DNA from: an uncultured Flavobacteriales bacterium
GTDB lineage: Bacteria > Bacteroidota > Bacteroidia > Flavobacteriales_G > Salibacteraceae
Direction: 5' to 3'
Assembly: GCA_913057205.1 (NCBI GenBank)
Contig: CAJXNO010000011.1
Location: 20,966-84,965 of the forward strand
Length of the DNA stretch: 64,000 nt
The notes under the pieces were generated by a model. The model was not told the origin of the DNA. It did not search any database and saw only the letters and a program-made list of their open reading frames with translations. The position numbers were made by a program, and so were the translations under genes. Of the stretch, positions 1-39,562 are shown piece after piece (position 1 is the first letter of the stretch; each line of letters starts with the position of its first letter).

Positions 1-32
1 GCTTCGAAACCGCCACAAGCCATATGCAAAAC

Positions 33-1229
33 GTTGGCAGTTATTAGAAAAAAATGAGATGAAAAAAATAATCACAATTAGCTGCGTCCTACTATTTTGC
101 CTTCCTGCGCTTGCTCAGTCAGGCTTTGATGAGGACTATTACTATATGAAGTGCGGCACTAAACTTGGCAAAAAATCAGAACTAATAGAGGGCTGTGTAA
201 GTGCGATTCCAAAAGAATATCATGATGCATATCGGGAACAAGCCAAGGTATGTGCCTGCTTAATGAGAACCATAGCAAAACACTATACTTACAAAGAACT
301 TGAATCTCTCGTCAAAATATATGGTTCAGATTTTTCAAAAGTAATATATAAAGACGGTGATTTGGAAGTAGTTTCAGACCTTGAAGATTGTGCAATGACC
401 TATATTGACCAAAGTTTCAATATCACCAAAGATGGTGAAAGTTTTGAGGAAGGATTTATGATTGGGTGTATCAGAGAACTAAAAAATAACCCCGACTTAA
501 AGGAAGTAGATATTGATGAATTCGTTTATTGCGATTGCATTAAAGAAGAAATTCAAAAGAGAGGTTTTTCATTATCTCAACTTGACGAAATTGAAGATGA
601 AAATTCAGTTCTTTTTAATGAAGTATTCATTTCCTGTTTGAGCAAGCCTGGAGTGCTAAAAGAATCATCAACTTCAACCAATGATGTAGTTGGTTATTCA
701 AAATCTGACCATGTTTCCTTAATAAATTATGGGGTAGCTTTCAAGGTTAAAATCAAAGTTGGCAGTTTATCAAAATACTTCATTCTTGACAGTGGGGCAA
801 GTGATGTTTTGATTTCCAGTGATTTTGAAAGAGAATTATTATTAGATGGGCTTATAAGTAGAGAGAACTATCTGACAGATGACTATTATTCCCTTGCTGA
901 CGGTTCAATAGTAAAGTGCAGGCGTATTTTATTGGACGGCTTTGAAATTGGTGACTTTACTGTGAATAATGTAACTGTTGCTATCGTTGACAATTCAGAC
1001 AATAGCTTACTGCTTGGAAAGTCATTCCTTGACAAGTTCGCTAACTGGTCGATTGACAACAAAAACTCGACACTGTATTTAGAAAAAAAGTGAAAATAAA
1101 CGTGCCACAACATCGGCTAAGAAAACATGCGGGCTGACACGGTAAAATGAACATTACAACACATAACAAAACTTGATTCTCGGCTGACAAATACGTATTC
1201 CAAAACCCGCACGTTTCTTAGCCAGAGCC
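33..1229 (+). mobile_element. Integron-like gene cassette 1 (retropepsin-like protease)
   Basis: Starts at GTTGGCAG (33-40), has one ORF, and ends in an attC-like imperfect hairpin (1103-1238) whose right end is GTTGGCA. Confidence 0.6.
59..1093 (+). CDS. Secreted retropepsin-like (clan AA) aspartic protease
   Basis: N-terminal signal peptide; FILDSGASDVLIS catalytic motif and downstream LLLGKSFLDKF typical of single-domain aspartyl proteases. Confidence 0.7.
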   Translation: MKKIITISCVLLFCLPALAQSGFDEDYYYMKCGTKLGKKSELIEGCVSAIPKEYHDAYREQAKVCACLMRTIAKHYTYKELESLVKIYGSDFSKVIYKDGDLEVVSDLEDCAMTYIDQSFNITKDGESFEEGFMIGCIRELKNNPDLKEVDIDEFVYCDCIKEEIQKRGFSLSQLDEIEDENSVLFNEVFISCLSKPGVLKESSTSTNDVVGYSKSDHVSLINYGVAFKVKIKVGSLSKYFILDSGASDVLISSDFERELLLDGLISRENYLTDDYYSLADGSIVKCRRILLDGFEIGDFTVNNVTVAIVDNSDNSLLLGKSFLDKFANWSIDNKNSTLYLEKK

Positions 1230-1238
1230 GTTGGCAGC
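1103..1238 (+). repeat. attC-like recombination site 1 (~136 bp imperfect hairpin)
   Basis: Left arm GCCACAACATC-GGCTAAGAAAACATGCGGG pairs with right arm CCCGCACGTTTCTTAGCC-AGAGCC-GTTGGC. Confidence 0.6.
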
Positions 1239-2820
1239 CATAAAAAAAGACAGACAATGAGAAAGACATTATTATTTCTATTTTTTCTAATTACAGCAAT
1301 AAGTCTCAAAGGACAAGACTTAAGCGGATTCAAATATGTTTTTGTTCCAACACTAACCTATCAAAACGGTGGAACAGATATTTGGAGCATATCATCGAAA
1401 TTAAGGACATCATTTATGCAAAAGGGGTTCATTGTTCTAGACGAATCATCTACAGCACCGCAAGAATTACAAAAAGACCCATGTCTACTTTTAAGGTGTT
1501 TTATTGATCATACAAACGTTACCTACGGTACAAACTCTGTTAATCTTACACTTAAAGATTGTAATGACAGAATTGTGCTTACAAGTAAAGGAAGTGCAGC
1601 AGGTTGGTCTGTTCAAGACGATTTTAATAAAGCCACGAGAAGGGCATTTGATAAAATAAGTGACCTTCCATATAGGTTTAACACTTCCAAAACACCCAAA
1701 CTTGATTTACCAGAAGTTGAAAAAACTGAAGAAACTGAACAATCACTAACTGCATATTTTGACTCAAATGCTTTAGACGAAATTGAAGGTATTTATAAAT
1801 CCTACCAGTCTGACCAATTAGGCTATTACAAAATTGGAATCAAAAAATTCGGGAGCAAGTATAAGGCTATAATAATTGAATCTGATCTCAACCATTGGAA
1901 GCAAGGTGAAGTCAAAGCCGTTTTTGAGACTAGCTCAATGAAAGGGTTTTATTCAACAAAATGGTATATGGGGAATAAAACACCATTTGAAACATTCGCT
2001 TTAATGGAAAACCCTGCTTTACTGACAGTTGAGTTTAAAGATGACAAAACAGGCGAAAAGCGAACCGATCAATTTATCAAAATGTATCCGTCAGCGGATG
2101 TAAGCGCCTCTACTGCCATTGATGGTATAAAAGCAACAGGGAGTGGTTTTGTTATTTCTACTGATGGTGTTATTGCCACAAATGCCCATGTAATTGAAGA
2201 TGCTGACAGAATCGAAATACACCTTAATAATGAATTTGGTACAAAAACATATTCTGCTTCAGTTCTTCTAAAGGACGAATCAAACGATGTTGCTTTATTA
2301 AAAATAGATGATGATGAATTCAAAGGATTCAATTCATTGCCATATTCAATTCTTCAAACTACTGAAATTGGTGAAGACGTTTTTACAATTGGCTTTCCAT
2401 TGAGTAGTTTAATGGGTGACAATTACAAAGTAACAAATGGAATTATCAGTTCAAATAGTGGTTTAAAGGACGATGTGCGTTTCATTCAAATCACAGCACC
2501 AATTCAACCAGGAAATTCAGGTGGACCACTTTTTAATAGGGATGGAAATGTGGTTGGTCTGACAACTTCTAAACTAAATGAAAGAGCAATTGGAACATCA
2601 ATTGAAAATGTAAACTATGCAATCAAGGCGACTTACTTGATTAACATATACAACATGCTTCCAAACAAAGAACAACTAAGCAAGAGCTCGACATTATCTG
2701 ACAAGGAGTTAAAAGACCAAGTTAAGGTTCTAAAGAATTATATCTGTCTGATAAAAATATATTAAAAAATACGACTGTCAACAAAAGCTATAGGGCATTA
2801 AAAAGCCCCATAGCCAAACC
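1230..2820 (+). mobile_element. Integron-like gene cassette 2 (trypsin-like protease)
   Basis: Starts GTTGGCAGC (1230); its own hairpin begins ACTGTCAAC, nearly complementary to that start. Confidence 0.6.
1257..2765 (+). CDS. Secreted trypsin-like serine protease (HtrA/S1C-like catalytic domain)
   Basis: Signal peptide; GSGFVISTDGVIATNAHVIEDA, DVALLKIDD and QPGNSGGPLFNRDGNVVGL give the His/Asp/Ser triad context. Confidence 0.85.
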   Translation: MRKTLLFLFFLITAISLKGQDLSGFKYVFVPTLTYQNGGTDIWSISSKLRTSFMQKGFIVLDESSTAPQELQKDPCLLLRCFIDHTNVTYGTNSVNLTLKDCNDRIVLTSKGSAAGWSVQDDFNKATRRAFDKISDLPYRFNTSKTPKLDLPEVEKTEETEQSLTAYFDSNALDEIEGIYKSYQSDQLGYYKIGIKKFGSKYKAIIIESDLNHWKQGEVKAVFETSSMKGFYSTKWYMGNKTPFETFALMENPALLTVEFKDDKTGEKRTDQFIKMYPSADVSASTAIDGIKATGSGFVISTDGVIATNAHVIEDADRIEIHLNNEFGTKTYSASVLLKDESNDVALLKIDDDEFKGFNSLPYSILQTTEIGEDVFTIGFPLSSLMGDNYKVTNGIISSNSGLKDDVRFIQITAPIQPGNSGGPLFNRDGNVVGLTTSKLNERAIGTSIENVNYAIKATYLINIYNMLPNKEQLSKSSTLSDKELKDQVKVLKNYICLIKIY

Positions 2821-2829
2821 GTTGTAAGC
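2774..2829 (+). repeat. attC-like recombination site 2 (short, 56 bp)
   Basis: ACTGTCAACAAAAGCTATAGGGC...GCCCCATAGCCAAACCGTTGTAAGC imperfect inverted repeat. Confidence 0.6.
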
Positions 2830-2853
2830 AATTGAAGAACTCAAATAGGCTTC
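2818..2853 (+). repeat. 36-bp direct repeat, copy 1
   Basis: ACCGTTGTAAGCAATTGAAGAACTCAAATAGGCTTC, identical to 5339-5374. Confidence 0.9.
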
Positions 2854-3313
2854 AATCATCATCGGACTCAACACCAAAGCATTGTAAAGACGATGCTATA
2901 CACCCACATATTGGGTTATACTATACCCTCGAAACCCTGACCAAAACAAGAAACCGATTTAGAATCACACACCCCCAAGGTGATTCGATGCCCTAGGTTT
3001 TAGCTTTCAGGTTTTAGTTGACTTTCAATCAATTACTGAGGTTTTTTATAGCCACCCCTACACTCTAGAGTAACCCCTAACATTTACTCACCTGTGCTTG
3101 TATAGGTCATAGTCAAAAATGATTAACCAGCGTATCCAATACATTCTGAGTAGTTTAGTTTTGTTATTGGGCGTTCCAGAAGTGGTTAATTTAAGCTGTA
3201 TCTTAATAATGGCCTTATCAAAACGCTAAGTTAACATGCTGAAAAAAAGAGTATAAATCCGTTAAACGTCAACTTTATAAGCGATAATAAGTGTGCGCTA
3301 ATAAAACAAGAAC

Positions 3314-4198
3314 ATGCCTAGAGAAATAATATTTGGAGAAATAACAGGGGTTCAAGAGGGTCATTGGTTCGAAGGACGCAAGGAAATGATGCCAGCAAGC
3401 TTTCATCGTAATTGGGGAGCAGGTATTGACGGAAATGGTTCTGAAGGAGCTGCGGCAATTGTCCTCTCTGGTGGCTATGAGGATGATAAAGATCTCGGTG
3501 ATGAAATAATTTACACTGGTGCAGGTGGTAATGATGCAAATTCAGGTAAACAAGTAGCAGATCAAAAATGGACTAATAGAGGAAATGCGGGTTTACTAAA
3601 AAGCATGAACGAGGGACTACCTGTTAGAGTGATCAGAGGATACAAGCACAAATCTCCATTCTCACCTACCTCTGGCTATACATACGCTGGTTTGTATAGT
3701 GTTGTCGATGCTTGGCAAGAAACGGGTAAAAGCGGATTCAAAATTTGTCGCTATAGATTGCTCTATGTGGGAGATAATACCGAAAGGAAATCTGCTGAGG
3801 AAGTTGAATTAGACTTAGATCATAATGTCAGAGAAAAGAAGCGTGTAAAAGGCACTGTTCTGAGAATAGTTCGTGATACAAAATTAGCCCATGATATAAA
3901 AGCACTGTATAATCATAAATGTCAGGTTTGCGATTTTGCTATTCCAACAAAAAATGGATTTTACTCAGAGGGAGCGCATATTAAACCCTTGGGAAAGCCA
4001 CATAATGGTGATGACAGTTTAGCTAACTTAATTTGCCTTTGTCCAAATCATCATGTTATGTTCGACAAAGGCTCTTTTTCAATCTCTGATAATTATGAAT
4101 TACTTGGTGCAGAGTCAGGACAATTAGCAGTGCATACTCAGCATAAAATCGATAAGGAAAATTTAAACTACCACAGAGGAAGTCATGGGTATAATTAA
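3314..4198 (+). CDS. SRA/YDG domain - HNH endonuclease (type IV, modified-DNA-dependent restriction-like)
   Basis: N-terminal GEITGVQEGHWFEGR..GIDGNGSEGAAAIVLSGGYEDDKDLGDEIIYTGAGG is a YDG/SRA signature; C-terminal CQVCDF..GAHIKPLGKPHNGDDSLANLICLCPNHHVMFDKG is an HNH nuclease. Confidence 0.9.
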   Translation: MPREIIFGEITGVQEGHWFEGRKEMMPASFHRNWGAGIDGNGSEGAAAIVLSGGYEDDKDLGDEIIYTGAGGNDANSGKQVADQKWTNRGNAGLLKSMNEGLPVRVIRGYKHKSPFSPTSGYTYAGLYSVVDAWQETGKSGFKICRYRLLYVGDNTERKSAEEVELDLDHNVREKKRVKGTVLRIVRDTKLAHDIKALYNHKCQVCDFAIPTKNGFYSEGAHIKPLGKPHNGDDSLANLICLCPNHHVMFDKGSFSISDNYELLGAESGQLAVHTQHKIDKENLNYHRGSHGYN

Positions 4199-4598
4199 GG
4201 TTGTATGTGGTGTCATTTACGACAATGACAAAGTTTTCATTTGCCGCAGAAAGGAGGGGAAATCTCTTGCTAGTTTTTGGGAGTTTCCTGGGGGTAAAGT
4301 TGAACAAAACGAAACAGATCAACTTGCTTTAAAACGAGAACTTCAAGAGGAACTTGAAATGGAAATAAATATTATAGGTCTTGTTGGCCAATCTAACCAC
4401 GATTATGGGAGTTTTCAAGTTGAATTATACGGATACGCTTGTGATTTAGTCAATTATCAGGGCAAGTTAACCGACCATGATGCTTACAAATGGGTGGATA
4501 TTGCTAAACTAGACGAGTACAAACTTGCTCCTGCAGATATTCCAATTAAACGAATGATAGAAAACAAAAATCGCACAACAAAACCTAAACTGCATTAA
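4185..4598 (+). CDS. Nudix hydrolase, MutT / NudG (CTP pyrophosphohydrolase)-like
   Basis: Nudix box GGKVEQNETDQLALKRELQEEL; N-term VVCGVIYDNDKVFICRRKEGKSLASFWEFPGGK; overlaps the upstream nuclease gene by 14 bp. Confidence 0.85.
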   Translation: MGIIKVVCGVIYDNDKVFICRRKEGKSLASFWEFPGGKVEQNETDQLALKRELQEELEMEINIIGLVGQSNHDYGSFQVELYGYACDLVNYQGKLTDHDAYKWVDIAKLDEYKLAPADIPIKRMIENKNRTTKPKLH

Positions 4599-4626
4599 AA
4601 CGCAGCTTAGCCAAAACGTTATGTGC
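4573..4626 (+). repeat. attC-like recombination site 3 (short, 54 bp)
   Basis: GCACAACAAAACCTAAACTGC-attaaaac-GCAGCTTAGCCAAAACGTTATGTGC imperfect inverted repeat. Confidence 0.6.
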
Positions 4627-5341
4627 AACTAAAAAATAGGAACATATGAAAAAAACGACAGCAACTTTAATCCTAACAATCTTGACAGCCTTTGCATTTG
4701 GGCAGATTGACGACAATTTGACGAAAGCACAGTGGAAACCAGGAAAGGAAAACATCATTTATGAAAATACAATTTTGCGACATGAAGGAAAAAATGATCT
4801 TGGTGGTATACTTAATGTTGGCTTCCAAACATTCGCTCAGGTTAAGGCAGACATAGAGCAAAGAGCTGACAAAGAAATGTGGACACCTGAAAAGAAAAAG
4901 GAAACAGTTGAAGCCTTTGAGAAACTTGCACTCGGTGGTATGATACATTTATACCTTACTCGTCTAACGATCGACGCTGCGAACACTGAAATGTTTACTG
5001 TTGTTGTAAGAGACTCATCTGACAGCAATGAAATCTTAAGGAAAGACCTTAAGAGTGATATTCCAAATACACCGTCAAGTGGGAGTGACTATTGGTGGAA
5101 TTATACTGCAATTCCAATTTCAGAACCTGTCAACGGAAAAATCTATATCTACATAATAGACAAGTTGGGTGGGGACAACAACAAGTTTAAGTTTGAAGTA
5201 AACCTATAAAAGCAGCACATAACAATGGGTATAAAAACATAGGGCGGACGATGGTTTCCGTAAGTTTTTGGCACATAGTAAACTTAGTCTAGGTGGACAG
5301 GAAAGCAGATCCGAAATGCCCTACATTTCATACCCGAGACC
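4618..5341 (+). mobile_element. Integron-like gene cassette 4 (hypothetical secreted protein)
   Basis: Starts GTTATGTGC (4618-4626) and its own hairpin starts with the exact reverse complement GCACATAAC (5215-5223). Confidence 0.65.
4646..5209 (+). CDS. Hypothetical secreted protein
   Basis: 187-aa ORF with signal peptide MKKTTATLILTILTAFAFGQ; sole ORF of cassette 4. Confidence 0.65.
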   Translation: MKKTTATLILTILTAFAFGQIDDNLTKAQWKPGKENIIYENTILRHEGKNDLGGILNVGFQTFAQVKADIEQRADKEMWTPEKKKETVEAFEKLALGGMIHLYLTRLTIDAANTEMFTVVVRDSSDSNEILRKDLKSDIPNTPSSGSDYWWNYTAIPISEPVNGKIYIYIIDKLGGDNNKFKFEVNL

Positions 5342-5350
5342 GTTGTAAGC
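5215..5350 (+). repeat. attC-like recombination site 4 (136 bp imperfect hairpin)
   Basis: GCACATAACAATGGGTATAAAAACATAGGGC...GCCCTACATTTCATACCCGAGACCGTTGTAAGC. Confidence 0.65.
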
Positions 5351-5374
5351 AATTGAAGAACTCAAATAGGCTTC
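5339..5374 (+). repeat. 36-bp direct repeat, copy 2
   Basis: Identical to 2818-2853. Confidence 0.9.
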
Positions 5375-5495
5375 TGTAATGCACCCCAAATTTAAGACAG
5401 GGAGTCAAGTTAGGAAAAGACCTAAATTTAACAACCTGAACAATGAAAAGACGTACAAGACAGGCTTAATGAAATGCTCTACGGATTGGAACAGG

Positions 5496-5891
5496 TCAAA
5501 GATGCATGTCCTTCGTTAAGTAGTCATAGCAAATAGCGCGGTCGCCCACGTCCTTACTTGCATAATATGCCACTCCGTAGGTGGAGTCCACTTGACCGAA
5601 GTTTCCGATTGCTTTAGGGTTGCGGCTTAAGTTAGCTCCAATTGCCACATCCTTAATTGTCAAATCTTCATCTTTAACCTCCAGAATCAGATGCATGTGG
5701 TTCATGCTGTTCTGTCTGTCTCGCTCGACTGGGTAAAAGACCTTTTTTATGGCTGTTACGTTTGTGATTAAACGGGTCGCTAGTTTGTAGGCAGACATCT
5801 CCGTAAACGGAAAGTGTCGGCGTATAGTTGCTGTGTAAGACCAGTCTGTTTCTGAGAGGAAATTACCCCATTCTCTTGCTATTATATTCAT
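5496..5891 (-). CDS. Putative HUH-type replication/relaxase-like endonuclease (small Rep)
   Basis: NHMHLILEV has an H-U-H motif (HMH); YYASK fits YxxxK catalytic Tyr motif; WSYTATIRRHFPF N-terminal context. Confidence 0.5.
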   Translation of the reverse strand: MNIIAREWGNFLSETDWSYTATIRRHFPFTEMSAYKLATRLITNVTAIKKVFYPVERDRQNSMNHMHLILEVKDEDLTIKDVAIGANLSRNPKAIGNFGQVDSTYGVAYYASKDVGDRAICYDYLTKDMHL

Positions 5892-6153
5892 GTGCTTCGT
5901 AGTTTACTTCGTTGGTGATGGGACATACCGAGGGTATATGGGAACCCCATTAGATTATATACGAAGAATCGGTAAATCCGTTTTGAATTCGTGCCTTCTA
6001 GTCCTGCTAGGGTTGATGATTTCAGGCTCAATTCTTCTTGGATAACGCCAAGAAATCTTAGGCTTGTTCAACTGTTAGAAGTTGGTCTTAATGGACAGAA
6101 GGGGCGGCTTGGGAGGGTAGTGAAATCGCACCTGGTCGAGTCTTATGAGTATA

Positions 6154-6429
6154 TCAGTTCACAACATCGATAGTGAATGTCTTTAGACTTTCGCCCACTT
6201 GCATAGTATTCTCTACCGCTTTCATTTTAGGTAGTACAAGATTTGCTAGCTTAATAAACACATCAATTCTGTCCTTTGGGGATAAGCTATCAATATCATT
6301 TTGAAGGGTCTCTACATTGCTACTTACTAAATCCGCGAATACTTCTCTTACGTATTCTTGAACCTTATTTGCTGACCCTTTTGGTCTTCCTGCGGGGTTA
6401 CCGCTATGTCCTTTTTCAAATCGTGCCAT
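6154..6429 (-). CDS. DUF5681-like protein (phage/mobile-element associated)
   Basis: FEKGHSGNPAGRPKGSANK N-terminal signature. Confidence 0.65.
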   Translation of the reverse strand: MARFEKGHSGNPAGRPKGSANKVQEYVREVFADLVSSNVETLQNDIDSLSPKDRIDVFIKLANLVLPKMKAVENTMQVGESLKTFTIDVVN

Positions 6430-6605
6430 CTCTCTGTTATTAATCTGTTGTTAGTGTACAATAGATATACGATTGAATCGCCGTTTTGTAGCAATTTCAA
6501 AGGTTATTCTGAGATATAGTAAGTCGTAGAATTAGCGGAATTATCCGAAGAGGATATGCCCAAGGTTTAGAAAAATTAACCTTTATTTTTGCTCGAAACA
6601 CAGTT

Positions 6606-7445
6606 ATGAGAATCACCATCCTTGCAGCACTTTTCATATTGGTTTCATGTGATGGGACCGACCAATCAGAGTACGAAGAAGCAATTCACTCGCTTGAGAG
6701 TTCATTTGTTGTTGGTAGAGGAATTAGCAAGATGGATTCAGGAGACTATCGCGGGGCAATAGAAGACTTCAACAAAGCAATTCAGCATGACCCGAATGAT
6801 GCTTTTGCCTACAACAGTAGAGGAATGAGCAAGAGGAATTTAGGAGACTATCGCGGGGCGATAGAAGACTATAGTAGAGCAATTGAACTTGACCCGAATG
6901 ATGCCCTGGGATATGTCGGTAGAGGAATTAGCAAGAAGAATTTAGGAGACTATCGCGGGGCAATAGAAGACTTCAACAAAGCAATTCAGCATGACCCGAA
7001 TGATGCTTTTGCCTACAACAGTAGAGGAGCAATCAAATCACTATTATATGACCATCGCGGAGCTATAGAAGACTATAATAGAGCAATTCAACTTGACCCA
7101 AATAATGCCCAGAGATATGTCGGTAGAGGAATTAGCAAGGCTGATTTAGGAGACTATCGCGGGGCGATAGAAGACTATAATAGAGCAATTCAGCTTGACC
7201 CAAATAATGCCCAGGGATATGTCGGTAGAGGAATTAGCAAGAAGAATTTAGGAGACTATCGCGGAGCAATAGAAGACTTCAACAAAGCAATTCAGCTTGA
7301 CCCGAATGATGCTATTGCCTACAACAATAGAGGAATGAGCAAGCTTTTAATAGGAGATTTTAACGGTGGTTGCCTCGATTTAAGCAGAGCTGGAGAGCTG
7401 GGGCAAATGGAAGTATATGACCTGATTAGAAAGTATTGCCAGTAA
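6606..7445 (+). CDS. Tetratricopeptide repeat lipoprotein
   Basis: Lipobox-like LVSC; six near-identical 34-aa TPR units GDYRGAIEDxxxAIxxDPNxAxxYxxRGxSKxxL. Confidence 0.9.
   Translation: MRITILAALFILVSCDGTDQSEYEEAIHSLESSFVVGRGISKMDSGDYRGAIEDFNKAIQHDPNDAFAYNSRGMSKRNLGDYRGAIEDYSRAIELDPNDALGYVGRGISKKNLGDYRGAIEDFNKAIQHDPNDAFAYNSRGAIKSLLYDHRGAIEDYNRAIQLDPNNAQRYVGRGISKADLGDYRGAIEDYNRAIQLDPNNAQGYVGRGISKKNLGDYRGAIEDFNKAIQLDPNDAIAYNNRGMSKLLIGDFNGGCLDLSRAGELGQMEVYDLIRKYCQ
6740..7350 (+). repeat. 102-bp tandem TPR-coding repeats with a 204-bp higher-order period
   Basis: GACTTCAACAAAGCAATTCAGCATGACCCGAATGATGCTTTTGCCTACAACAGTAGAGGA occurs twice, 204 bp apart. Confidence 0.85.
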
Positions 7446-7455
7446 AAGAGATAAT

Positions 7456-7668
7456 ATGAAACACATCAAAATACTAATCCTTTTTGCTATCCCATTGCTG
7501 CTACTTGGGTTTACGCACTCCCGCATATCAAATGATTACGCTACAACGCTTAAAGAGACCTTAGAATGTAAATTCAGCCAGTGTCAGGCTATAGCTAAAA
7601 GCACAGGGAAACAATGTAAGCGCTGTGTTTCAAATAAGGGAGACTTGTATTGTTGGCAGCACGATTAA
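7456..7668 (+). CDS. Small secreted Cys-rich (zinc-ribbon-like, DUF5763-like) protein
   Basis: CQAIAKSTGKQCKRCVSNKGDLYCWQH pattern after a hydrophobic N-terminus. Confidence 0.5.
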   Translation: MKHIKILILFAIPLLLLGFTHSRISNDYATTLKETLECKFSQCQAIAKSTGKQCKRCVSNKGDLYCWQHD

Positions 7669-7802
7669 TTTCTAAATCACGAGTTTCTCCTTCATCTTGA
7701 AGAGTATTTGAGGTTTTACCCACCCTATTTGTACCTTATTTGTACCCTGTACGGATAACTATTTGATTACTAGACTTAGTTACTTTTTGTATCGGAAAGT
7801 GA

Positions 7803-9320
7803 TCAAATTCCCTCCGGAAGGGCCTCCCCCACCATATTGATCTCCGTGATGCGGTCCGCTTTGATCAGCATCTTATGACTGCTGCTGGATAGATTAGTGA
7901 CGTACACCTTCTTCCCTGCTTTATGGTATCGCTCTGTGAGCTTGTTCAAGGCTTCGATGGCCGACATATCTGCCACGCGACTCTCCTTGAAGTCGATCAT
8001 CACCTCCTCTGGGTCATTCTCGACATCAAACTTTTCGTTGAATACCGAAACCGACCCGAAGAATAGCGGACCGTAGATCTCATAGTGCTTCACCCCATTG
8101 TCATCAATGCGTTTACGGGCACGTATGCGCTTCGCATTATCCCACGCAAAAACCAGTGCGGCGATGATCACCCCGGCCAATACAGCCAAGGCCAGGTTAT
8201 GCAGAAAGATGGTCACCAGAGTCACCAGCATCATGATGAAGATGTCTGACTTAGGAAACTTATTGAAGGTGCGCAAACTGGCCCACTCAAAGGTTCCTAT
8301 GGATACCATGATCATCAATCCAGTGAGCGCTGCCATGGGAACCTTTTCAATCAATGAGGATCCAATCATCACAAACATCAAAAGCATAACGGATGCTACG
8401 ATTCCCGATAACCTTGCGCGTGCGCCGTTAGAAACGTTGATCAAACTTTGTCCGATCATCGCGCAGCCACCCATACCAGAGAACAAGCCTGAAACAACAT
8501 TCGCCATACCTTGAGCGATGGCTTCCTTGTTACCTCGACCGCGCGTAGCTGTGATCTCATCAACAATATTCAATGTCAACAAGCTCTCGATCAACCCTAC
8601 CCCAGCTACAATGGCGGCATAGGGAAAAATGATGGTCAAGGTCTCCCATGCCATAGGGATGGAAGGCAGGTGAAAGGGTGGAAAGCCGCCTTGAATGGAT
8701 GCCAGATCGCCTACAGTCTTGGTGTCAATCCCAAGAAGACTAACCAAAGCAAACACCACTAAAATGGCGGTAAGTGAAGCAGGCACCACCTTGGTCAGCT
8801 TTGGTAAGCCCCAAATGATGAACATCGTAAGTAGAACCAATGCCAATAGTATGTAAAGTGCGCTTCCGGTCAACCAATCGCCAGAGGCGTCTTGAAACTG
8901 TACCAGCTGCGACATGAATATGATGATGGCCAATCCGTTCACAAAACCAAATACCACCGGGTGCGGCACCAAGCGCATGAGCTTGCCCAAACGAAGGAAT
9001 CCAGCTGCCATCTGCATCAGACCGGCAAGGATCACCGTGGCAAAAACGTATTCTACCCCATAATCCTTTACCAAGCTCACCAGGACCACAGCCACTGCCC
9101 CAGTTGCTCCACTGATCATACCTGGCCTACCACCGAAGATCGAAGTCACCAGTCCCATAGTGAACGCAGCATACAAGCCAACCAATGGCGATAAGCCAGC
9201 GATCATGGCAAATGCAACCGCCTCAGGAACAAGCGCCAGTGCCACAGTGATTCCGGATAGCACCTCGGTCTTATAATCTACCTTCTGCGAAAAATCAAAT
9301 ATGTTCAGTACCTGCTTCAT
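7803..9320 (-). CDS. SulP family inorganic anion transporter with C-terminal STAS domain
   Basis: VALALVPEAVAFAMIAGLSPLVGLYAAF and C-terminal STAS; start placed at MKQVLNIFDFSQ rather than the ORF-track start 9464. Confidence 0.9.
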   Translation of the reverse strand: MKQVLNIFDFSQKVDYKTEVLSGITVALALVPEAVAFAMIAGLSPLVGLYAAFTMGLVTSIFGGRPGMISGATGAVAVVLVSLVKDYGVEYVFATVILAGLMQMAAGFLRLGKLMRLVPHPVVFGFVNGLAIIIFMSQLVQFQDASGDWLTGSALYILLALVLLTMFIIWGLPKLTKVVPASLTAILVVFALVSLLGIDTKTVGDLASIQGGFPPFHLPSIPMAWETLTIIFPYAAIVAGVGLIESLLTLNIVDEITATRGRGNKEAIAQGMANVVSGLFSGMGGCAMIGQSLINVSNGARARLSGIVASVMLLMFVMIGSSLIEKVPMAALTGLMIMVSIGTFEWASLRTFNKFPKSDIFIMMLVTLVTIFLHNLALAVLAGVIIAALVFAWDNAKRIRARKRIDDNGVKHYEIYGPLFFGSVSVFNEKFDVENDPEEVMIDFKESRVADMSAIEALNKLTERYHKAGKKVYVTNLSSSSHKMLIKADRITEINMVGEALPEGI

Positions 9321-37957: not shown

Positions 37958-39562
37958 ATGAACCCCACTTTAAAGAAACGCCTGCAGGCCTACTCCCTGA
38001 CAGCAGGTAGTATAGTTGCAGGCCTCGGAAGTCAAGCTCAAATCCTCTACACCGATGTTGAGCCTGATACCACGGTTGACCTTTTCAACGCGTTGTATGA
38101 GCTAGACTTGAACAATGACAATATCAATGACTTTGAGCTCCAGGCCATCAGTCAAGCGTACTCCTACTACAGCTATGTGAGTTCTGTACAGGCGGTGAAT
38201 GTGACGCCATTGATGAGTAATTCAGTGGCCGGATACTCGTACGAAAGCTATCCCTATGCCCTCCTCACGGGTGATAACATCGGTCCGAACCTCAGTTTCT
38301 CAAGCTACTCATACAACTTACTGAACGGCTTCTTCTTCTACTCTGGACCCTACGGCTCTTATTATTTTCCACTTGGCAACTGGCCAACCAATCAAGACCG
38401 ATACCTGGGTTTGAAATTGATTTTGAATGGCAACACACATTATGGTTGGGCGCGTATTTCTGTACTCGGTCCGTCTTCAATGATTTTGCGAGATTATGCC
38501 GTTGAACTTACCCCTGATGCACCGATCGTGGCGGGTGATACCTTCTCTATTCCATTTGACACCATAGATGTTGGAATGAACGTGACCGCAGCCGATGCGG
38601 GTGAGGCAGGAAACGGTGGCGACATTGAGGTGTTTTTCAATAGAGCTGCAGATGAATCCGATATTCAGGAATACCGAGTGATCGCTGTTAAGGCATCACA
38701 AGTGGCCTCATTTAACCTGGCCAACGCTACCCAAATGACCGGTTCTCAATATTTAGGCATTACACCAAACGGCAATGATATCACCACCCGACTCAGTCAG
38801 AATGCCTTAGACAGCGATGGAGATCCGATTACATCCGGTCAGCCCTATCGTATATTCGTTTATAGTGTTGGTGTTGCTTCATTCAATGGCCTTGAAGCCC
38901 TTTCTGAACCATCCAATGAGGTTACCTTAATCACCCCTATACTGCTGGATGCGGTTCAGAACGTACAGCTTTTTGATGTTGACGATCAATACGACGAACG
39001 CGACTTGGAAGTAAGCTTCAACGCCCTTCCCAATGAAGCTGGCGTAGCAGAATACCGTGTGATCATCGCAACTACCGAACAAGCGTTCACCTTCTCATTA
39101 GAAGATGCAGCCGCGCTAGCGAGCAATCGCTATACAAGTGTGAATCCGTCAGGAAATAACATTACCACCGGTATCGGCCAAAACAAACGCGATGCGTCTG
39201 GTAACGCAATCATGGCTGCCATACCCTACCGGGCTTTTGTATATGCTGTTCCAGATGGAACCATTGCCAATGTTGGTAGCCTATCGCCCGTGTCGAATGA
39301 AATGATACTCAACCCACCTCAAGGTAAGACCGATGAAATGAAGGCTTCTGCCATCAAGGTCTACGTTGCAAATGATGCGCTGATGCTATCCGGTGTTGCA
39401 ACAAACGCTGATCTGGCCATCTACGATGTACAAGGTCGAATGGTACAACAAACGGTCTATCAACCAGGAGATCAGGTTACATTGAGTGCACTGGGTCGAG
39501 GAACGTACTTGGTACGCATCCAATCAGAAGCCGGTTTCCATCATGCCAAAATCGTTTTCTAA
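37958..39562 (+). CDS. T9SS type A sorting domain protein (paralog of 34029 gene, with two internal Fn3-like repeats)
   Basis: LKKRLQAYSLTAGSIVAGLGSQAQILYTDVEPDT; internal RVIAVKASQ../RVIIATTEQ.. repeats; C-term LAIYDVQGRMVQQTVY..GTYLVRI. Confidence 0.8.
   Translation: MNPTLKKRLQAYSLTAGSIVAGLGSQAQILYTDVEPDTTVDLFNALYELDLNNDNINDFELQAISQAYSYYSYVSSVQAVNVTPLMSNSVAGYSYESYPYALLTGDNIGPNLSFSSYSYNLLNGFFFYSGPYGSYYFPLGNWPTNQDRYLGLKLILNGNTHYGWARISVLGPSSMILRDYAVELTPDAPIVAGDTFSIPFDTIDVGMNVTAADAGEAGNGGDIEVFFNRAADESDIQEYRVIAVKASQVASFNLANATQMTGSQYLGITPNGNDITTRLSQNALDSDGDPITSGQPYRIFVYSVGVASFNGLEALSEPSNEVTLITPILLDAVQNVQLFDVDDQYDERDLEVSFNALPNEAGVAEYRVIIATTEQAFTFSLEDAAALASNRYTSVNPSGNNITTGIGQNKRDASGNAIMAAIPYRAFVYAVPDGTIANVGSLSPVSNEMILNPPQGKTDEMKASAIKVYVANDALMLSGVATNADLAIYDVQGRMVQQTVYQPGDQVTLSALGRGTYLVRIQSEAGFHHAKIVF

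Follow-up and report, generated by a model that had tools for sequence, protein, structure and literature searches.

A cassette array in an uncultured Salibacteraceae bacterium points to an integron-like system of Bacteroidota with a recombinase that lacks the IntI insertion

A stretch of 64,000 nucleotides from an uncultured Flavobacteriales bacterium of the family Salibacteraceae (assembly GCA_913057205.1, contig CAJXNO010000011.1, positions 20,966 to 84,965 of the forward strand; hereafter the window) begins with a series of genes that are each followed by a long hairpin (positions 33 to 5350). We consider it very probable that these hairpins delimit the gene cassettes of an integron-type array which has no integrase of its own (CALIN) and lies on a mobile island, and that the array is part of an integron-like system which is widespread in Bacteroidota and whose recombinase lacks the insertion specific to the integron integrase IntI. 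The system would be a variant of the integron with a non-canonical integrase, its activity being deduced from sequence. What is observed is the array architecture, the covariation between the end and the start of the same cassette, breakpoints at G^TT, a bias towards folding of the bottom strand, and the linkage of the recombinase to such arrays. The family of this recombinase presumably performs the reaction, on sites that would be folded as single strands, and the member encoded on another contig of the same genome (C4) would act in trans on the window array. The connection of enzyme and sites is drawn from genomic linkage and breakpoints.

The first-pass annotation of the window had described four hairpins, each 3' of a co-oriented open reading frame (ORF) or ORF pair and ending in GTTG or GTTA, with a right spacer 2-3 nt longer than the left one. 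They are present as described, with spacers of, for example, 3/6 and 4/6, and their arms are interrupted by one or two mismatches or extrahelical bases (sites attC_A to attC_D, Table 1). Two features had escaped it, namely a truncated site at the left edge (attC_0) and a 36-nt repeat (2818-2853, identical to 5339-5374). Of attC_0, 48 nt match one attC (G004, L061) at 98%, with a weak match at R2 positions 38-71, and no sequence matching its left half was found upstream of the right half. Between the left end of a hairpin and the start of the cassette to which it belongs, complementarity was 8/10 for B and 9/10 for D, against 6/10 for the neighbour. A covariance model was trained on 16 short sites, B and C included. 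RNAalifold had proposed no consensus pairing for an initial alignment, and the consensus structure was set by hand. In the window it matched only B and C (E-values of 3.5e-12 and 5.3e-12, both sites being in the training set), and in the whole 2.8-Mb genome only the arrays on C4 and on C11, the contig of the window array. A search of window positions 1-8000 against Rfam gave no match.

Hairpins that fold well and stand just past stop codons, in a window that holds many chance hairpins, might be taken for ordinary transcription terminators of single-gene units. However, the pairing partner of their left arm is the start of the same cassette, about 1 kb off, and not the adjoining end, the same hairpins are kept in other genomes beside unrelated genes with breakpoints at G^TT, and their right ends run on as GTTG or GTTA with no T run, so that we regard termination as extremely improbable. 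The hallmarks of an intrinsic terminator (a GC-rich stem followed by a T run, with no link to distant sequence) were not found, nor were the 28-bp double-stranded dif sites of XerCD/dif modules, the boundaries being long imperfect hairpins with own-start covariation. To judge from these features, the hairpins are integron cassette sites, not terminators. Between 1109 and 5344 there are four sites spaced 0.7-1.8 kb apart, whereas a CALIN is defined by at least two attC within 4 kb and no integrase; as already remarked in the earlier reading, nothing integrase-like adjoins the array, and an attI next to an integrase gene is not present there. Because its left end is cut inside an attC and its right end lies 32 nt into a cassette, the window array is, as far as its ends can tell, a small CALIN that has lost its own platform.

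The genome encodes seven proteins with a phage-integrase domain. One of them, on contig C4, is a tyrosine recombinase of 397 amino acid residues. An attI-like junction lies on the same strand as its gene, 25 nt past the stop codon, and attC cassettes come next. In 5/5 successive cassettes of this array, the left hairpin end is perfectly complementary to the opening 10 nt of the cassette itself (10/10), against only 3-6/10 for the start of the neighbour. Such identity is read as the footprint left by the recombination of circular cassettes at G^TT. A canonical IntI above the TIGR02249 cut-off was not found in this genome; the partner recombinase of the window array is predicted to sit on C4 and not to be a canonical IntI itself.

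Homologues of this recombinase (the family) were chosen by protein similarity alone. Chains of cassettes were then searched from the GTT just past the integrase stop codon, with a hairpin agreeing with its own cassette start in at least 8/9 positions, and the count covers the loci with at least 3 kb downstream of the integrase (n=50). Chains of at least two links were found directly downstream in 36/50 family loci (15 links at most), in 0/33 other tyrosine recombinases and in 21/500 shuffles, and chains of at least four links in 20/50 loci versus 3/500 shuffles. A non-circular test, in which hairpins were chosen by structure only, gave an own match of 4.8/7 versus 2.7/7 for the neighbour (p=5e-12). 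On C4 and in the family, the first cassette starts at a GTT that lies mostly 8-180 nt past the integrase stop. This short distance, the recurrence of the linkage, the absence of chains beside the other recombinases and the inheritance of integrase and attI as one block up to G^TT (see below) all speak against the alternative that the host XerC/XerD or some other recombinase acts on the arrays while the family enzyme is simply nearby. Although the family enzyme does resemble XerA-like proteins, we hold that alternative to be very improbable.

The family is common in the class of the window, and its linkage to arrays recurs across many genera and families of Bacteroidota, cultured hosts among them (Algibacter onchidii, now Cognatitamlana, whose strain XY-114 has an array of 10 links at L096; Winogradskyella ursingii, with strain HL4150 at L099; Flavobacterium aciduliphilum; Algoriphagus ornithinivorans; Seonamhaeicola aphaedonensis). 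In a sample of 393 genomes of the phylum, the family profile matched 135, which is an upper bound that includes shorter relatives without the N-terminal domain described below, and canonical IntI scored above its cut-off in 107, only one of them in the class of the window. Many draft contigs (e.g., loci L077-L083) stop within about 140 nt past the integrase stop, at attI, as if the arrays broke the assemblies, and array counts in drafts are therefore lower bounds. Family-like recombinases were also seen outside Bacteroidia, in another class of the phylum (L339) and, with N-terminal domains, in metagenome-assembled genomes labelled Spirochaetota (L108), Undinarchaeales (L110) and Firmicutes (L101), where mis-binning is possible.

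The IntI-specific insertion (around patch III) is absent from the C4 enzyme and from every measured member of the family. Family proteins score 189-207 bits with TIGR02249 (cut-off 265), compared with 389-478 bits for three canonical IntI; the spacing from GKG to HxLRH is 64-66 residues instead of 107; and the alignment to IntI4 of Vibrio cholerae (PDB 2a3v) breaks exactly at the missing insertion. The catalytic residues R-K-H-R-H-Y are invariant in 25/25 sequences. In a quick tree, canonical IntI group together as a clade (support 99), the family branches outside that clade, and all of them stand apart from XerC/XerD; this topology does not establish the family as a single clade. By sequence, the closest proteins are XerA-like and belong to NF040815, named 'site-specific tyrosine recombinase/integron integrase' (236 bits for the C4 enzyme; PDB 4a8e, 5hxy); XerA, however, resolves chromosome dimers at dif, whereas the family is tied to attI and cassette arrays and has an N-terminal domain. 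An AlphaFold2 model (mean predicted local distance difference test score of 84) has 2a3v as its predicted best fold match. The extra N-terminal domain, of about 75 residues, is weakly like DUF5710/HARP in sequence, and its fold weakly resembles the N-terminal region (damage-recognition domain) of archaeal XPB. As the fold matches are non-significant (best E-value 0.09), the role of this domain stays a guess.

The anatomy of the sites was drawn from 142 attC of the wider family. Their R stem, of 9-10 bp, covaries freely and contains all four Watson-Crick pair types, with 98% of positions paired versus 36% on re-pairing. At nt 11, an A at the cassette start faces a C at the cassette end in 75%, that is, A.C on the top strand and a T.G wobble on the bottom strand. 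About three further covarying pairs come after it, and positions 12-14 covary even though they lay outside the search criteria. One position of the L stem pairs throughout on the bottom strand only (16/16 vs 6/16). The bottom strand is the more stable one in 131/142 sites, by a mean of -4.2 kcal/mol (DNA parameters), with mid-cassette controls leaning the opposite way, and the longest ORF is forward in 131/133 cassettes. The imperfect palindromes with R and L boxes, the GTT crossover and the bottom-strand folding of canonical attC are all seen here, and the strict GTTRRRY is not, being matched by only 8/142 sites, which bears out the earlier remark that the heptamers are non-canonical. Co-oriented cassettes whose own start completes their own attC occur in the family and, in the window, as B and D, with A and C departing from this pattern.

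These details bear on the possibility that an ordinary IntI assembled the cassettes of the window, the C4 recombinase being degenerate or an unrelated neighbour. Canonical IntI is indeed common in other classes of the phylum (the 107/393 genomes above), with similar chained arrays there. Yet only one genome of the same class in the sample has it, and none was found in the genome of the window. Moreover, 20 canonical IntI loci of the same phylum, used as a positive control, have chains of the same kind, yet these lie on the divergent side of the integrase, whereas the family gene points towards its array, which lies co-oriented on the 3' side. The R stem differs as well, being 10-11 bp without a fixed mismatch at nt 11 in the canonical arrays, as opposed to the fixed A.C (top strand) followed by three pairs in the family. 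We therefore judge assembly by a canonical IntI to be very improbable.

Comparison of the array DNA with 100 related genomes gave strongest matches which, outside a dispersed repeat, fall mostly on the hairpins and not on the genes. Matches to sites A, C and D with their flanks start near AAC and stop near GTT, at 74-95% identity and in unrelated surroundings; for attC_C, 15 matches of 80-95% in relatives span essentially this site alone. The 32-nt start of cassette C is found 3' of attC_B and of attC_D in the window and 3' of a different attC in a genome of the same genus. As an example from the family loci, L061 and L062 share an integrase and attI flank at 97% identity, and their first cassettes differ from GTT onward, while L062 and L069 have different attI sequences and a common cassette (82% over 337 bp) whose start falls precisely at GTT. 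The same hairpin beside unrelated genes could also be expected of miniature mobile elements that insert after genes, independently of cassettes. The own-start covariation and the shared cassettes starting from GTT would nevertheless need gene and hairpin to move jointly, which leaves this explanation with a negligible probability. The first-pass annotation had named two patterns that would contradict an integron-like array, a fixed gene order with the hairpins as plain terminators and hairpin boundaries that never coincide with presence/absence breakpoints. Neither is seen, since gene order varies among relatives and the breakpoints fall at hairpin ends, and its array reading is upheld.

Several points weigh against the integron interpretation. 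The shape of the hairpins is not decisive alone, given that an AAC-stem-GTT score of 37 for A, 21 for B and 18 for D, with C below the cut-off of 17, compares with 90 matches of 17-32 in the remaining 56 kb of the window. Since this score fails to set B-D apart from background, own-start complementarity, homology and the covariance model were used instead. Cassettes A (4/10) and C (6/10) fail the own-start test, and thus look degraded or composite. Within the family, 14/50 loci yield one link at most (some of the contigs are short, and some arrays may have been lost), the hairpins behind a few chain links are weak, and not every locus is independent of the others (L067 and L094 are one contig, and the L061 and L062 integrases are near-identical). 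Finally, passages in PMC8138268 (citing MacDonald 2006) and PMC9668308 hold the IntI insertion to be essential for integron function; one classification notes its incomplete conservation in a subgroup of integron-like enzymes, yet terms it essential (PMC8138268).

In the mechanism that we propose, a recombinase without the IntI insertion and with an N-terminal domain would be encoded directly upstream of attI and point towards it, and circular cassettes would go in and out at G^TT. The recognised site would be the folded bottom strand of attC, in which the end and the start of one and the same cassette pair as an R stem of 9-10 bp, followed by the fixed T.G wobble and about three more pairs, with the L stem on the far side. 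It is further conceivable, though we would sooner doubt than assert it, that Bacteroidia have an integron class of their own, in which attC is recognised without the IntI insertion and the N-terminal domain reads the folded, wobble-containing single-strand site.

The window array itself lies on an integrative island of about 15 kb (G000:C11:13888-28765, in the window up to 7800) at the 3' end of mnmE. The array and an Arm-DNA-bind integrase are enclosed by two copies of a 16-nt repeat of the mnmE end, and the island also carries HTH_17 and AAA_25 genes. This integrase is the tyrosine integrase met at a distance of 5 kb when one looks upstream along the contig, as had been advised; as a candidate for the array's integrase (L011) it was rejected, being of the Arm-DNA-bind island type beside mnmE. 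Its relatives adjoin mnmE in 3/10 loci of the same genus and were not found beside mnmE in the other loci. The window array is thus a cluster of cassettes carried by a mobile island, and the C4 enzyme plausibly acts on it in trans. Just inside the right end of the island, an ORF (6606-7445) contains seven similar 102-nt repeats encoding tetratricopeptide repeats (TPR).

The first ~490 nt of cassette C are non-coding and include a copy of the dispersed repeat, which is about 200 bp long and occurs in the genus of the window between unrelated genes, including those of a type I restriction system. Several copies come after an attC plus a cassette start, TTGTAAGCAATTGAAGAACTC, and the repeat may be a recurring 5' segment of cassettes or a cassette without an ORF. 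A small tyrosine-recombinase ORF lies near it in L345 and on C21. Two-link chains in L345, L346 and L349 were too short and were not counted as evidence.

Table 1. Features of the cassette array, its island and the dispersed repeat (window positions unless a contig or locus is named).
Feature	Position	Strand	Remarks
attC_0	1..40	+	right half only, left side cut; crossover G33^T34, start of cassette A
Cassette A	34..1230	+	one ORF (59-1093), secreted, aspartyl protease domain PF13650
attC_A	1102..1239	+	AAC 1109-1111, GTT 1230-1232; similar sites in G014, G066, G023
Cassette B	1231..2821	+	ORF 1257-2765, trypsin-like peptidase PF13365
attC_B	2773..2830	+	AAC 2780-2782, GTT 2821-2823; left end versus own cassette start 8/10
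Cassette C	2822..4618	+	ORFs 3314-4198 (SRA + HNH) and 4185-4598 (NUDIX)
attC_C	4570..4627	+	AAC 4577-4579, GTT 4618-4620; covariance-model match
Cassette D	4619..5342	+	ORF 4646-5209, secreted, no Pfam match
attC_D	5214..5351	+	AAC 5221-5223, GTT 5342-5344; left end versus own cassette start 9/10
Fifth cassette fragment	5343..5374	+	first 32 nt, same sequence as the start of cassette C; interrupted thereafter
Direct repeat of the mnmE 3' end (16 nt)	7785..7800	+	right end of island; other copy C11:13888-13903
Dispersed-repeat copies	2894-3093; G000:C11:20264-20465; G000:C21:36938-37026, 39309-39435; L345, L346

Compared with known systems, the family shares with the IntI integron (TIGR02249; 2a3v) an attI by the integrase, arrays of one-ORF cassettes, and attC hairpins in which R and L stems, spacers of unequal length, a bottom-strand bias and a G^TT crossover recur. 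It differs from it in the missing insertion, the added N-terminal domain and an integrase that points towards the array, and its sites differ from canonical attC in an R'' that is rarely GTTRRRY and a longer R stem with a fixed wobble. The chromosomal integron of Treponema (PMC3607928) is alike in the transcription of its integrase towards attI, in cassette direction; its integrase, however, is treated as an IntI, whereas the family has no insertion and lies on separate branches. With the CALIN of IntegronFinder the window array shares at least two attC with no integrase nearby, as judged by the definition, and it is unlike them in its attC of a new type and its place on a mobile island.

Integron surveys pick integrases by the IntI-specific domain (PMC2426708), and archaeal integrons were accepted on the basis of the additional domain of IntI (PMC9668308). 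A recombinase without that domain is thus invisible to such surveys. In the open-access literature, with closed-access papers and preprints outside the scope, we found no description of this family with its arrays. As a separate observation, canonical IntI above the curated cut-off is frequent in other classes of the phylum (106 genomes), many times the one complete integron that IntegronFinder 2 names for Bacteroidetes, that of Salinibacter ruber M1 (PMC9024848).

It would seem that an entire branch of integrons has escaped notice. The cargo of the window cassettes comprises proteases, a nuclease for modified DNA (SRA-HNH) and a NUDIX enzyme. If our interpretation is right, a common route of gene capture in a major phylum, cultured strains included, would have been missed, and the family would provide a natural test of whether the IntI insertion is needed to recombine folded single-stranded DNA.

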